A DNA stretch of 64,000 nucleotides from Lentisphaerota bacterium (lineage in GTDB: Bacteria; Verrucomicrobiota; Lentisphaeria; Victivallales; Victivallaceae): assembly GCA_015061625.1 (NCBI GenBank), contig SUWG01000004.1, positions 1 through 64,000 of the forward strand, read 5' to 3'. Position numbers and translations under genes: made by a program. The notes below the pieces were generated by a model that searched no databases, was not told the DNA's origin, and saw only the letters and a list, made by a program, of their open reading frames with translations. Positions 29,969 to 53,785 of the stretch are shown one piece after another (positions within the stretch are counted from its first letter, which is position 1; the number at the start of each line of letters is the position of its first letter).

Positions 29969-30469
29969 ATGAAGTGTCCTCGCTGTAATATTGAATTGCA
30001 GAAGTCAACTTATTGCAATATCATCGCTTTTTATTGCCCGCATTGCCACGGAACAGCAGTTACGGTCAGTGGCTTGCGAAGTTTGGGTGTCGAGCCGGAA
30101 AATGTTTACAATATTTGGGCCGGAGCCAATGCCGGGAAATTGGGATGTGAGATATTTTGTCCGGAATGCGGTAATCCGATGCGGCTAACCAAACTTGATG
30201 ACAACTGCAATACATTTTATATAGACATCTGTATCTGTTGTCAACTAATATGGTTCGACTTCGGAGAATTGGATAAGATTCCGGTGGTCAACATGGATGG
30301 AGCGGATCATTTGCCGCCGCAAGCCAGAGAGATTATGACGATCAGCAATGGGTGGGAAGAGGAAACAACGCCGGGGAAAATGCCGACATTTTTGAATAAA
30401 TTGGGAATAGATCAAATGTGGTGTTGCGCCGCTTTGAGACTGCTTTTACGTTTAATTTTCAAAATTTAA
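29969..30469 (+). CDS. Zinc-ribbon (zf-TFIIB-type) protein, upstream partner of the TIR gene
   Basis: A 166-residue protein with two treble-clef/zinc-ribbon units: C3/C6 with C23/C26, and C64/C67 with C88/C91. The second ends in LIWFDFGELDKI, the zf-TFIIB signature. The C-terminus is cysteine-rich and hydrophobic (WCCAALRLLLRLIFKI), which may be a membrane-associated helix. The gene has a GAGGA ribosome site and ends 6 bases before the TIR gene, so both are likely on one transcript. Function is unknown. The zinc ribbon at the start of the TIR protein is a different type. Confidence 0.7.
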   Translation: MKCPRCNIELQKSTYCNIIAFYCPHCHGTAVTVSGLRSLGVEPENVYNIWAGANAGKLGCEIFCPECGNPMRLTKLDDNCNTFYIDICICCQLIWFDFGELDKIPVVNMDGADHLPPQAREIMTISNGWEEETTPGKMPTFLNKLGIDQMWCCAALRLLLRLIFKI

Positions 30470-30475
30470 CAAATC

Positions 30476-31371
30476 ATGGCTAAAATACAATGCAAAATGT
30501 GCGGCGGTGAGATACAAGTGCCGGAGGGAGTCAGCTCCGGAAGTTGTCCCTATTGCGGCACCTTGACCACCTTCCCCAAAGTTTCCAGTGAAGAACTGGA
30601 AAATCTCTACAACCGGGCTGAACATTTCCGCCGGATCAATGAGTATGATAAAGCGGTTTCCGCTTATGAAAAGATCGTGGAAATCAATCCGGATGATGCC
30701 GAAGCGTATTGGGGGTTGGTCATTTCCAAATTCGGTATCGAATATGTGGAAGACCCGGTAAGCCACGAGCGAATCCCCACCTGTCACCGGGTGCATTATG
30801 AGTCGATTTTAGCCGATGCCGATTATCTTAACGCTTTGGAAAAAGCCGGAAGTTATGAAAAAGGCATCTATGAAGCCGAAGCCAAACGGATCGCCGAAAT
30901 CCAGCGGGATATTTTGAGCATTTCCAATAATGAACAGCCCTTTGATGTCTTTATCTGCTATAAAGAGAGCGATAATTACGGCCGCCGCACCAAAGATTCA
31001 GTTACGGCACAGGAGATCTATTACCAACTGACCAATGCCGGATATAAGGTATTCTTTTCCCGCATCACTCTGGAAAGCAAACTCGGTCAACAGTATGAGC
31101 CGTATATTTTTGCGGCATTGAATTCAGCAAAAGTAATGCTGGTCATCGGTTCGCAGAAAGAATATTTTGATGCCGTCTGGGTACGCAATGAGTGGAGCCG
31201 TTTTCTTGCTTTGATGAAAAAAGACCGCTCCAAACTGCTTATCCCCTGTTATAAGGATATGGATGCTTACGATATTCCGGATGCACTTTCCGTATTTCAG
31301 GCACAGGATATGGGTAAGATCGGCTTTATTCAGGATTTGCTCCACGGTATAAAAAAGGTGGCGGATAAACA
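30476..31371 (+). repeat. Duplicated block, copy 1 (zinc ribbon-TPR-TIR)
   Basis: About 895 bases match 51989-52881 closely. In one 300-base stretch (from about 30561) I count about 7 differences by eye. Similarity falls sharply after the TIR domain. Confidence 0.85.
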
Positions 31372-32482
31372 GGAAAGTGCTTCTCCGGCAACTTCAACGG
31401 CAACTCCGACCAACGGTGGCGATGCCAACAGCAAAGATCACCCGTTTTTACAACGGGCAGAACTTTTTCTGGAAACTGCAGAATTTGAATCCGCCAAAGA
31501 GTATTGTGAAAAATTGCTGGATATCAATCCGCAGAACGGCTGGGCATATTTTTACCGGTTGATGGCAGAAAACCAAGTAACGAATGAAAAGTTACTGGTC
31601 GATATTGCCGGAATCGATCAACAAAAGACATTTCAACTGGCTCAAAGATTTGCGGATAATGCTTTAACGGCAACTTTAACCGGAATCACAGACGAAATAC
31701 GCCGCAGAGCAGAGGAAAAGCAAAGACGGCAAGCTGAAGAGCGCAGAAAAGCAGAGGAAGAAGCACGCAAAAAAGAAGAGGCCAAAAAACTGGATCAGCA
31801 ATACCGCGAAGATGCCCGCAACCGTCTGGAAATATTGGCCAGACAAATCACGGTCGAGCAATTGCTGGATAACCGCCCGGATATCCTAGATGCACTTATC
31901 CGATGCAAAATTGCGGAAAAAAATCTGCTGGCCCATCCCGATAATCTTACCGGAGCAATGATCGCCCCGGTCAAAGAGGCAAGTTATGAAATAATCAATC
32001 AACTTCCGCCAGTCGAAAAACGGGAAAAAAAATGTACCGAAGTACGCAAATATGTAAAAGCGAAAGGTTGCGGTATAGCCTTGCTGTTCATAATCATATC
32101 GATCTGGTGGTACTATTGGGATATTGCAAAAGAATCCCTCCATTACCAGCAGGCTTATCAATTCGGACAACAACAAAGACAACAGCAGCGGCAGGCACAA
32201 GGTTATGGTGTTTGTATTTTGAGCAATGACGGCAAAACGGTTACCGGCACGGTAAATAAAAATATCACCCGGTGCATTATTCCGGCCGGAGTGACAGTTA
32301 TTGGGAACAACGCATTCAGTGATTGCTCTGATTTGACCGGTGTCATTATCCCCGACAGCGTAACGTTTATTGGAGAAAGGGCGTTTTTGGGTTGCTCAAG
32401 CCTGACAAGTGTAACGATCCCACGGAATTGCGCAGTCGCGAATGATGCCTTTCCCAGCAGTTGCAGGGTGATACGGCGGTAA
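30476..32482 (+). CDS. Membrane-anchored TIR protein with zinc ribbon, TPR and leucine-rich tail
   Basis: The protein has 668 residues. In order: a zinc ribbon (C6, C9, C24, C27); a TPR-like pair (about 45-80); a TIR domain (about 155-290) beginning FDVFICYKESD; a second TPR-like unit (about 325-365); a charged coiled coil (about 405-445); and one membrane span (about 532-549). A Gln-rich linker and two BspA/LRR_5-type repeats (about 600-660) end the protein. E239 in WVRNEW occupies the place of the catalytic glutamate of NAD-cleaving TIRs (WVHKE in SARM1). The basic flank before the span predicts TIR inside and LRR outside. No ribosome site is obvious, so translation may be coupled to the upstream zinc-ribbon gene. 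A near-identical N-terminal half occurs at 51989. Confidence 0.85.
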   Translation: MAKIQCKMCGGEIQVPEGVSSGSCPYCGTLTTFPKVSSEELENLYNRAEHFRRINEYDKAVSAYEKIVEINPDDAEAYWGLVISKFGIEYVEDPVSHERIPTCHRVHYESILADADYLNALEKAGSYEKGIYEAEAKRIAEIQRDILSISNNEQPFDVFICYKESDNYGRRTKDSVTAQEIYYQLTNAGYKVFFSRITLESKLGQQYEPYIFAALNSAKVMLVIGSQKEYFDAVWVRNEWSRFLALMKKDRSKLLIPCYKDMDAYDIPDALSVFQAQDMGKIGFIQDLLHGIKKVADKQESASPATSTATPTNGGDANSKDHPFLQRAELFLETAEFESAKEYCEKLLDINPQNGWAYFYRLMAENQVTNEKLLVDIAGIDQQKTFQLAQRFADNALTATLTGITDEIRRRAEEKQRRQAEERRKAEEEARKKEEAKKLDQQYREDARNRLEILARQITVEQLLDNRPDILDALIRCKIAEKNLLAHPDNLTGAMIAPVKEASYEIINQLPPVEKREKKCTEVRKYVKAKGCGIALLFIIISIWWYYWDIAKESLHYQQAYQFGQQQRQQQRQAQGYGVCILSNDGKTVTGTVNKNITRCIIPAGVTVIGNNAFSDCSDLTGVIIPDSVTFIGERAFLGCSSLTSVTIPRNCAVANDAFPSSCRVIRR

Positions 32483-51906: not shown

Positions 51907-51988
51907 AACATTTGCATTCCATTATTGTTCATGCTATATTAATGTTTTCAGTTATTATATTGCAAAATTAAAATTCTTGTGGGGAATC

Positions 51989-52881
51989 ATGGCTAAAATA
52001 CAATGTAAAATGTGCGGTGGTGAGTTGCAGCTGCCGGAAGGGATGTATTCCGGAAGTTGTCCGTATTGCGGCACGTTGACCACCTTCCCCAAAGTTTCCA
52101 GTGAAGAACTGGAAAATCTCTACAACCGGGCCGAACACTTCCGCCGGATCAATGAATATGATAAAGCGGTTTCCGCTTATGAAAAGATCGTGGAAATCAA
52201 TCCGGATGATGCCGAAGCGTATTGGGGGGTGGTCATTTCCAAATTCGGTATCGAATATGTGGAAGACCCGGTAAGCCACGAGCGTATCCCCACCTGTCAC
52301 CGGGTGCATTATGAGTCGATTTTAGCTGATGCCGATTATCTTAACGCTTTGGAAAAAGCCGGAAGTTATGAAAAAGATATCTACGAAGCCGAAGCCAAAC
52401 GCATTGCCGAAATCCAGCGGGATATTTTGACGATTTCCAACAATGAACAGCCGTTTGATATCTTTATCTGTTACAAGGAAAGCGACAATTTCAATAAGCG
52501 CACCAGAGATTCAGTTACGGCACAGGAAATCTATTATCAACTGACCAATGCCGGATACAAGGTGTTTTTTTCCCGCATCACGTTGGAAAGCAAACTCGGT
52601 AAACAATATGAGCCGTATATTTTTGCGGCGTTGAATTCTGCTAAAGTAATGCTGGTCATCGGTTCGCAAAAAGAATATTTTGATGCGGTATGGGTGCGCA
52701 ATGAGTGGAGCCGTTTTCTCGCTTTGATGAAAAAAGACCGCTCCAAACTGCTCATCCCCTGTTATAAGGATATGGATGCTTACGATATCCCGGATGCGTT
52801 GTCGATGTTTCAGGCGCAGGATATGGGTAAGATCGGCTTTATTCAGGATTTGCTCCATGGCATAAAAAAGGTGATCGCTAA
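51989..52881 (+). repeat. Duplicated block, copy 2 (zinc ribbon-TPR-TIR)
   Basis: This matches 30476-31371 base for base with few changes, most of them synonymous. The offset is 21513 bases and the orientation is direct. Confidence 0.85.
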
Positions 52882-53785
52882 AAAAGAAGAACATTCGGTC
52901 ACAACAGATGCGGCAGCAACTTCCGGAGACAAAAATCACCCATTGCTCCGCCGGGCAAAACTCTTTCTCGAAAATAACGATTTTGAATCGGCCAAAGAGT
53001 ATTGCGAAAAAACTCTCGACCAGGATCCGGAAAACGCCTGGGCATACTACTATCGAATGCGGGCAGAATTATACATTTCCAATCTCGAAGAGTTGTTACT
53101 GTCTGATTTTATTCATACCAATTCCTATCGGATGGCCAGAAAATTTGCGAATACAGAATTGAATTTATTACTTGATCGAATCGTTAAAAAACAAAAAAAA
53201 TTTTTCGAGCAAGAGTCCGTTTTATCGACAAACAGCCAGGAATATAATACACCGCAATCACACTTAATTATTCAGGAAAAAATCAGAGAACAACTCACCG
53301 TTTTCACCAAATTACTTTTTGAAGAAAATACAGCTATATACAAACGAACGGATGTAATTGAAGTTTTGCAAAACTGCAGAACCATTATCTGTTGCAACAC
53401 TTTATTCAGCAAATCAGCCATTTTATCCTTCCGACGCTCATTATTTAAAGAAAAAAATACGTTGCTATCCACCAGAAAAAAGGGTGAAGTGGCCAATATA
53501 ATACAAGCAATCGACGATTGTCTGAAAGCTACAGGGGATAACCATACCCAAAACAACTTTCCCAAGACTGCAACTCCGGTGCATCACCCACAAAAAATGC
53601 ACCGACCGGTGCAAACGCCTCCGCAAAACAATCAGGTACAAAATTTTTATCAAACGCAGGGTCCGCATTCGTATGCAGGAGTATCTCCTGCACAAGCAAA
53701 AAAACAAAACGATGGATGCGTTGAAACCGGCGTTGGATGCGGAGTTATCCTGTTTATAATTATGGTGATCGTCAATTCATGTTAG
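51989..53785 (+). CDS. TIR protein with zinc ribbon and TPR, tail-anchored paralogue
   Basis: The protein has 598 residues. The first ~295 are almost the same as in the TIR protein at 30476: zinc ribbon (C6/C9/C24/C27), TPR-like pair, TIR with FDIFICYKESD and the candidate catalytic glutamate in WVRNEW. A second TPR-like unit follows (about 318-355). The remainder differs: a helical, A/T-rich segment (about 390-510), a Pro/Gln/His-rich linker, and a C-terminal membrane segment (GVGCGVILFIIMVIVN) that ends the protein. There is no leucine-rich tail. The start is ATG 51989, with GTGGGGA upstream. The 3' end overlaps the convergent phosphoesterase gene by 4 bases. Confidence 0.83.
   Translation: MAKIQCKMCGGELQLPEGMYSGSCPYCGTLTTFPKVSSEELENLYNRAEHFRRINEYDKAVSAYEKIVEINPDDAEAYWGVVISKFGIEYVEDPVSHERIPTCHRVHYESILADADYLNALEKAGSYEKDIYEAEAKRIAEIQRDILTISNNEQPFDIFICYKESDNFNKRTRDSVTAQEIYYQLTNAGYKVFFSRITLESKLGKQYEPYIFAALNSAKVMLVIGSQKEYFDAVWVRNEWSRFLALMKKDRSKLLIPCYKDMDAYDIPDALSMFQAQDMGKIGFIQDLLHGIKKVIAKKEEHSVTTDAAATSGDKNHPLLRRAKLFLENNDFESAKEYCEKTLDQDPENAWAYYYRMRAELYISNLEELLLSDFIHTNSYRMARKFANTELNLLLDRIVKKQKKFFEQESVLSTNSQEYNTPQSHLIIQEKIREQLTVFTKLLFEENTAIYKRTDVIEVLQNCRTIICCNTLFSKSAILSFRRSLFKEKNTLLSTRKKGEVANIIQAIDDCLKATGDNHTQNNFPKTATPVHHPQKMHRPVQTPPQNNQVQNFYQTQGPHSYAGVSPAQAKKQNDGCVETGVGCGVILFIIMVIVNSC

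Follow-up and report, generated by a model that had tools for sequence, protein, structure and literature searches.

The DNA analysed here, a window of 64,000 nucleotides from a Lentisphaerota bacterium, encodes a 668-aa protein in which a TIR domain precedes a membrane span and a leucine-rich repeat (LRR) tail. This protein belongs to a TIR family that might be understood as a set of SPFH-organised, often membrane-anchored receptors with swappable sensor tails, a proposal whose chance of being right we place slightly below even. Such a receptor set is the most economical account of the family. The domain order, the TIR fold, the position of a glutamate, the span and the charge bias around it were obtained by computation, as were the core shared between proteins with different tails and the gene linkage and co-occurrence with SPFH. 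The features of the window to which the text refers are as follows.

29969..30469, + strand: upstream Zn_ribbon_TFIIB gene (Pfam), 166 aa, ending 6 bases before the TIR gene
30476..32482, + strand: TIR-span-LRR gene, an intact ORF from ATG to TAA, 668 aa, with Pfam domains
30491..30556, + strand: N-terminal zinc ribbon, residues 6-27 (C6, C9, C24, C27), from a CxxC...CxxC pattern
30602..30721, + strand: first TPR, residues 43-82, from Pfam TPR_1/2/8 above cut-off and AlphaFold2 helices 39-53 and 57-70
30947..31315, + strand: TIR domain, residues 158-280, from Pfam TIR_2, AlphaFold2 of the TIR alone and SPARTA/SARM1 fold matches
31190..31192, + strand: codon of E239 in WVRNEW (motif starting at residue 235), at the position of the catalytic glutamate of NAD-cleaving TIRs
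31442..31588, + strand: second TPR region, about residues 323-371, from Pfam TPR in two stretches, the second weak
31658..31867, + strand: long helix, residues 395-464, from AlphaFold2
32012..32071, + strand: basic stretch before the span, residues 513-532, with 6 or 7 K/R in 15 residues
32063..32119, + strand: membrane span, about residues 530-548, from a hydrophobicity score and a continuous helix at 513-574
32255..32479, + strand: LRR_5 (BspA-type) tail of two repeats and a cap, residues 594-668, from Pfam LRR_5
51989..53785, + strand: sister gene, core 94% identical over residues 1-300, with a span at the extreme C-terminus and no ectodomain

An earlier note on this DNA had read the protein as a zinc ribbon, TPR, TIR, TPR, coiled coil, one span and two LRR_5 repeats, and this order was borne out by the ORF, by Pfam (which returned TPR, TIR_2 and LRR_5 in that order) and by AlphaFold2. 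For the zinc ribbon of the 668-aa protein no Pfam zinc-ribbon match above cut-off was obtained; its four cysteines (C6, C9, C24 and C27) were invariant in 19/19 aligned cores. The second, weaker Pfam TPR match lay at about residues 335-371, and helices were modelled at 323-333, 337-350 and 355-365. The full-length AlphaFold2 model, built on a 27-row family alignment, comprised a TIR-like block, helices 323-365, helix 395-464 (which may be read as a coiled coil), the continuous helix 513-574 and LRR strands at 580-667. Its mean pLDDT was 87.1 but its pTM was 0.44, so that single parts were well modelled and the predicted placement of the domains relative to each other is unreliable; residues 300-316 and 557-570 had a pLDDT below 50. 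The TIR gene and the upstream Zn_ribbon_TFIIB gene are possibly co-transcribed. As a conserved partner the upstream gene was rejected, since no second copy was present in the genome and none was found at the family loci examined.

The family was assembled as 71 different rows, which became 64 after 7 near-copies or fragments were dropped and 76 with 12 later additions. Of 53 regions retrieved for it, 18 contributed no row to the 71, being either repeats or missed by the motif filter, and 26 matches from these 18 regions and one viral locus were rechecked. On the shared core, the tails were LRR_5, FGE-sulfatase, DUF6273, RCC1, ankyrin, several spans or none. The genome studied holds four copies, and the three sister cores were 80-96% identical to the 668-aa protein and ended differently, in an FGE-sulfatase domain, in a Ser/Asp-rich tail, or with no ectodomain. 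The sister gene with the FGE-sulfatase tail behind its span is located at L040:4034-6613. The sister gene at 51989..53785 might alternatively begin with a TTG at 51977. DNA identity between the two window copies was 87-98% over residues 1-300 and 65% at 301-360, and the sequences were unrelated beyond. Between the TIR-span-LRR gene and the FGE copy it was 84-96% up to residue 420, and then dropped. The tree built from 64 cores grouped the four copies of this genome in a supported clade (100/98) despite their differing tails, and the three SIG89 LRR copies in another (100/95). The LRR-with-span label required two changes on this tree and was equally clustered in 30/500 shuffles, with tail labels available on only 13/64 rows. 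Near-identical cores with differing tails fit either homogenisation of the core or exchange of the tail. A diversity-generating retroelement was considered for the FGE copy and provisionally set aside, as the single RVT_1 match of the genome, which is about 91% complete, lies on contig C5 and the FGE copy on C18. That RVT_1 match is a 314-aa ORF (L217:2806-3750).

The same core was present in Lentisphaerota, Clostridia and one Bacteroidota record. Named relatives came from Lentisphaerota, Clostridia including Ruminococcus flavefaciens, Solobacterium and one Odoribacteraceae record, in a scan of named genomes that used two peptide patterns, returned 22 loci and is not a census. The family was sparse. 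It was detected in 4/60 genomes of the relatives draw and 6/337 genomes of the phylum draw (own genome included in both), and, when an order was sampled around a carrier, in 18/197 genomes, one of which gave as many as 8 matches.

Both sequence profile and fold place the domain in the TIR superfamily. Pfam TIR_2 matched residues 158-280 with an E-value of 4e-13 (50.2 bits against a cut-off of 28), and AlphaFold2 of the TIR alone gave a pTM of 0.83 and a mean pLDDT of 86.6. Searching solved structures by sequence brought up TIRs at weak scores only, headed by a Toll-like receptor TIR (E 0.001), and folds were therefore compared. The nine best solved chains by Z were SPARTA TIRs, from 17.8 (1.6 A) down to 16.1, with SARM1 next at 15.8; AbTir (14.8) tied with the Toll-related TRR-2 of Hydra (14.8) and with MyD88 (14.7). 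When solved structures were ranked by Foldseek E-value, SARM1 was first. The structure prediction that had been proposed earlier as a check supported a TIR fold whose catalytic position is occupied by a glutamate.

The assignment of E239 to the position of the catalytic glutamate, also made in the earlier note, agrees with its alignment to the WxxxE glutamate of the flax L6/L7 and SNC1 TIRs; a Toll-like receptor TIR also has its WxxxE glutamate at this aligned position. We take the aligned L6 glutamate, by our own count, to be E135, and presumably SARM1 E642 lies in a similar motif. The WVxNE motif was present in 71/71 family rows, all of which had passed a motif filter, and in 22/26 of the rechecked matches, 10 of those 22 being repeats of rows already in the set. 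The 4/26 without it were one 138-aa fragment and three weak matches. Three extra ORFs (L178, L193 and L199) matched the family core weakly and were without WVxNE; these are possibly TIR-less relatives. As judged from the residue alone, a glutamate at the catalytic position would be necessary and not sufficient for an NAD-cleaving TIR. E239 is no proof of a predicted NADase, because that glutamate is also common in TIRs such as those of TLR1/2/6/10; it is reported in over 70% of all TIRs, TLR1/2/6/10 included (PMC7075850). The occurrence of this residue in non-enzymatic TIRs, the Toll-like receptor as best sequence match and the tie with TRR-2 and MyD88 count against the receptor interpretation with an enzymatic TIR. 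Activity in vitro has been reported for 28/152 bacterial TIRs, with a caution from the authors on false negatives (PMC9092222).

A purpose-written hydrophobicity score, in which a lower value is more span-like, was applied to the best segment after residue 300. It split 64 family proteins into 35 with a span (<=2.48) and 29 with none (>=6.69). The best segment within the conserved cores never scored below 6.04, and the 668-aa protein, at -0.30, fell into the span class. The 12 additional members divided into 9 with a span (<=-1.0) and 3 with none (>=9.0), and a span was thus present in 44/76 family proteins examined. The span previously assigned to residues 532-549 was predicted here too, with its range amended to about 527-548 (hydrophobic run from 533). 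Around the span of the 668-aa protein, 6 or 7 K/R were counted in the 15 residues before it and 1 after it. Across the family, K/R before the best span exceeded K/R after it in 27/28 proteins with more than 60 residues behind the span, and in 27/29 at a looser threshold. This charge bias supports the predicted N-inside/C-outside orientation, which had first been proposed from the basic stretch of the one protein.

Among 13 other LRR_5 ORFs of the genome, found by searching with the 668-aa protein, 9 had a single hydrophobic segment, signal-like or a span, ahead of the repeats, 3 had several segments, from which the side could not be told, and 1 had none by score. By eye, the N-terminus of this last ORF is signal-like. 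Because of the charge bias in the family, and because most other LRR_5 proteins of the genome carry export signals, the LRR_5 tail of the 668-aa protein is predicted to lie outside the cytoplasm. Since an Omp85 gene is present in the genome, the predicted location is the periplasm and not the cell surface; the 'outside' position first suggested for the LRR is therefore retained with respect to the cytoplasm and given up with respect to the surface. Other tails were found in both settings. RCC1 tails occurred with a span in L065, L154 and L189 and without one in L155 and L175, DUF6273 tails with a span in L062 and L064 and without one in L151 and L182, and in L068, a Bacteroidota record that runs up to the edge of its contig, an LRR_5 tail came after the TIR, without a span. 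The same tail types with and without a span argue against a fixed outside role of the tails, and also count against the receptor interpretation. In the 668-aa protein, the predicted side of the tail is decided by its span.

The tail belongs to the BspA-type LRRs, with Pfam LRR_5 matching residues 594-657 (E 1.5e-13, 51.2 bits against a curated cut-off of 27.7), and the two repeats counted originally were found again, together with a cap. Fold matches of the tail were weak (TpLRR and BACCAP_00569). LRR_5 tails were present in 5/76 family proteins examined, and the 12 additional members held no LRR_5-like repeat. The order TIR-span-LRR was found in 4 proteins, from 2 genomes of one genus. The comparison with Toll receptors made in the earlier note, which had proposed a search for the same order elsewhere, suits the predicted geometry of this one member and falls short for the family, in which the LRR is one of many exchangeable tails. 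In the span-LRR relatives the repeats numbered 6, 7 and 37 by a strict pattern that undercounts. Set against these numbers and the 28 repeats of a TIR-less relative, the two repeats of the 668-aa protein might be a remnant or stub without a sensing role, and the protein might act like the ectodomain-less sister, whose gene has only a terminal span. We regard this as unlikely, for both repeats and the cap are intact and were modelled with a pLDDT near 90. As a recognition surface, an LRR of two repeats is short, and this, with the sister lacking an ectodomain, also counts against a receptor. The TIR-less relative (L043:2832-7622, G000:C37; 1596 aa) aligns with residues 319-650 and has a span and about 28 LRR_5 repeats by the strict pattern. 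It is without the zinc ribbon-TIR part and could be a co-receptor or a decoy. Four other ORFs of the genome studied (L200, L201, L206 and L211) combined LRR_5 repeats and one or several spans with what by eye are CxxC pairs close to the N-terminus.

The recurring neighbour of the family was an SPFH gene. Within 2.6 kb and on the TIR strand in all cases, an SPFH ORF group was found near 26/64 members, which are not 26 independent cases as at least three member pairs share one SPFH gene, and a small membrane-protein ORF group near 19/64. Another family gene adjoined 19/64 members. At one locus (L057) the order was SPFH, membrane protein, TIR, with stop-to-start gaps of 15 and 24 bases. Pfam Band_7_1 was matched by 4/5 SPFH-group ORFs scanned (2 of them also with zinc ribbons), the fifth having been truncated where the 2.6-kb range ended; the small membrane proteins scanned (4/4) were without any Pfam match. 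A close SPFH type, defined as over 260 bits by a line set after the scores were seen, was present in 17/18 TIR-positive and 2/179 TIR-negative genomes of the order (Fisher p 2e-21), and in 4/4 TIR-positive and 5/56 negative genomes among the relatives (Fisher p 3e-4). With a looser count of every SPFH match at E 1e-40, the values were 17/18 against 11/179 in the order (p 3e-16) and 4/4 against 9/56 in the relatives (p 1e-3). No correction for relatedness enters these Fisher tests, and the genomes of the order were sampled around one that carries the family. The SPFH linkage and co-occurrence of the TIR family are new here, and were not visible from the single window on which the earlier note drew. 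The literature search covered TIR with BspA/LRR_5, TIR with SPFH or flotillin, and bacterial Toll-like receptors; among the matches listed, an SPFH-TIR family was not named in titles or abstract starts, in a body of literature that mostly left out subscription papers.

The SPFH pair was not always beside the TIR. In this genome the SPFH-membrane-protein pair lies elsewhere, with an SPFH 66% identical, and is not linked to the TIR genes, and the pair is likewise apart from the TIR genes in the genome whose copies carry LRR tails (G012); in 7 genomes, such pairs were found without this TIR. The presence of a pair in this genome counts for the receptor interpretation; its separation from the TIR genes and the pairs without this TIR count against it. 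Six of the seven TIR-negative genomes with the close SPFH type encode a nearby zinc-ribbon protein with weak similarity to the N-terminus of the family proteins (E 4e-7 to 2.5e-4), most of it in the zinc ribbon, and the seventh gave no match. When the ORFs of the window served as decoys in this comparison, 163/165 gave nothing and the other two were the window's own family genes. Kinase-like ORFs (by eye) were seen near SPFH-membrane-protein pairs at L216:10000-11307, L259:6464-9286 and L262:6509-9172.

In Bacillus subtilis, the SPFH protein YdjI, with YdjG/H, is reported to be needed to bring PspA to the membrane (PMC8581546). Common to pspA-ydjGHI and the loci described here is an SPFH with a C-terminal zinc finger, as reported for YdjI, adjoining membrane-protein genes (PMC8581546), and an SPFH with Band_7_1 was found in this genome and linked in relatives. 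Here the linked genes encode instead a TIR protein and a small membrane protein that matches nothing in Pfam. The family might accordingly supply a structural part of an envelope-stress, YdjI-like complex, in which the TIR would only self-assemble, without enzyme activity, and the tails would attach to different sites. The adjoining or co-occurring SPFH genes, the reported recruitment of PspA by YdjI with YdjG/H, the other zinc-ribbon proteins that follow TIR-less SPFH pairs and the 28/152 bacterial TIRs active in vitro would fit this possibility, which we hold to be rather unlikely given the glutamate motif in 71/71 rows and the enzymatic TIRs that head the solved folds by Z. The alternatives weighed in this study are not mutually exclusive, and their probabilities need not add up to one.

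Defence-profile, phage and plasmid searches gave no positive evidence for phage defence. The NCBIfam Thoeris model ThcB4 scored 19.7 bits against a cut-off of 220, too low for assignment to Thoeris, and ThsB gave no PADLOC match for the 668-aa protein at E 0.01. PADLOC returned only PDC-S66 (E 2e-5, 22 bits) and Cmr5 (E 0.004) for this protein; in the relative L055, PtuA1 was matched at 9e-11, but in the Sel1 repeat region. A mobile origin was rejected, as searches of 50,697 phage and 72,556 plasmid records turned up no relative. In viral_contigs there was one match, whose last 200 residues were the same as those of a family protein already in the set. Three more TIR proteins in the genome (L038:1-2199, L041:3998-8272 and L042:2963-5308) are of another layout, with an N-terminal TIR, a span and TPR-like arrays (by eye; for L038 by NCBIfam TPR matches). 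An anti-phage abortive-infection receptor, whose tail would sense infection and whose TIR would deplete NAD, would be consistent with the variety of the tails, the patchy spread of the family and the TIR NADases reported in several phage-defence systems (SPARTA, matched here in fold, SpbK and Thoeris). It appears improbable, as the neighbours in the window look like housekeeping genes from a reading of their ORFs, the PADLOC matches were weak, ThcB4 was far below its cut-off and phage or plasmid relatives were absent from the records searched.

Rumen and gut samples occur among the titles of the named relatives, and TIR effectors are known in pathogens, from which a host-directed effector that disturbs animal Toll signalling might be imagined. 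There is very little chance of this: the TIR precedes an internal span, the charge bias is N-inside, an N-terminal hydrophobic segment is absent, and many relatives adjoin SPFH genes.

With animal Toll and Toll-like receptors the protein would share an LRR and a TIR on opposite sides of one span, as predicted here. The order is the reverse (TIR, span, LRR), and not that of an N-terminal LRR, a span and a C-terminal TIR. Further differences are the BspA-type LRR_5 with only two repeats, the additional zinc ribbon, TPRs and long helix, and the replacement of the LRR by unrelated tails in relatives. The NAD-cleaving TIRs of SPARTA (TIR-APAZ), SARM1 and AbTir differ from the predicted TIR protein in partners and architecture. 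BspA-like LRR_5 proteins have the repeat in common with it; in this genome they mostly carry the repeat behind a signal-like segment or span, whereas here a TIR protein has it as its tail. Modular proteins that reuse TIR and FGE-like domains and have variable parts are also reported from ternary conflict systems, in which TIR and FGS domains occur (PMC7159879), but the recurring partner here is SPFH.

For the receptor interpretation, the following mechanism is proposed. The zinc ribbon and TPR would dock the protein to a scaffold of the YdjI-like SPFH and the small membrane protein. The TIR would be the output, most likely an NAD-cleaving enzyme that is switched on when cores cluster, and the C-terminal tail would be a replaceable sensor or input, here with the LRR as the sensing part. 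In the protein encoded at 30476..32482, the tail would cross the inner membrane once and show a short LRR_5 domain in the periplasm. The purpose may be envelope stress or defence.

TIR domains, LRRs and SPFH scaffolds are already known separately. It is conceivable, and we put it forward tentatively, that gut-habitat bacteria run SPFH-organised TIR receptors with a near-identical cytoplasmic core and interchangeable sensors on either side of the membrane, of which the TIR-span-LRR member would be an independent, inverted counterpart of Toll. If true, this would provide a testable bacterial parallel to Toll signalling, with an enzyme-type TIR behind a span, a swapped sensor and an SPFH partner, and a clue to the role of one TIR group found in Lentisphaerota and Clostridia. 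The SPFH link narrows the question to whether the TIR is activated through clustering by the SPFH complex.
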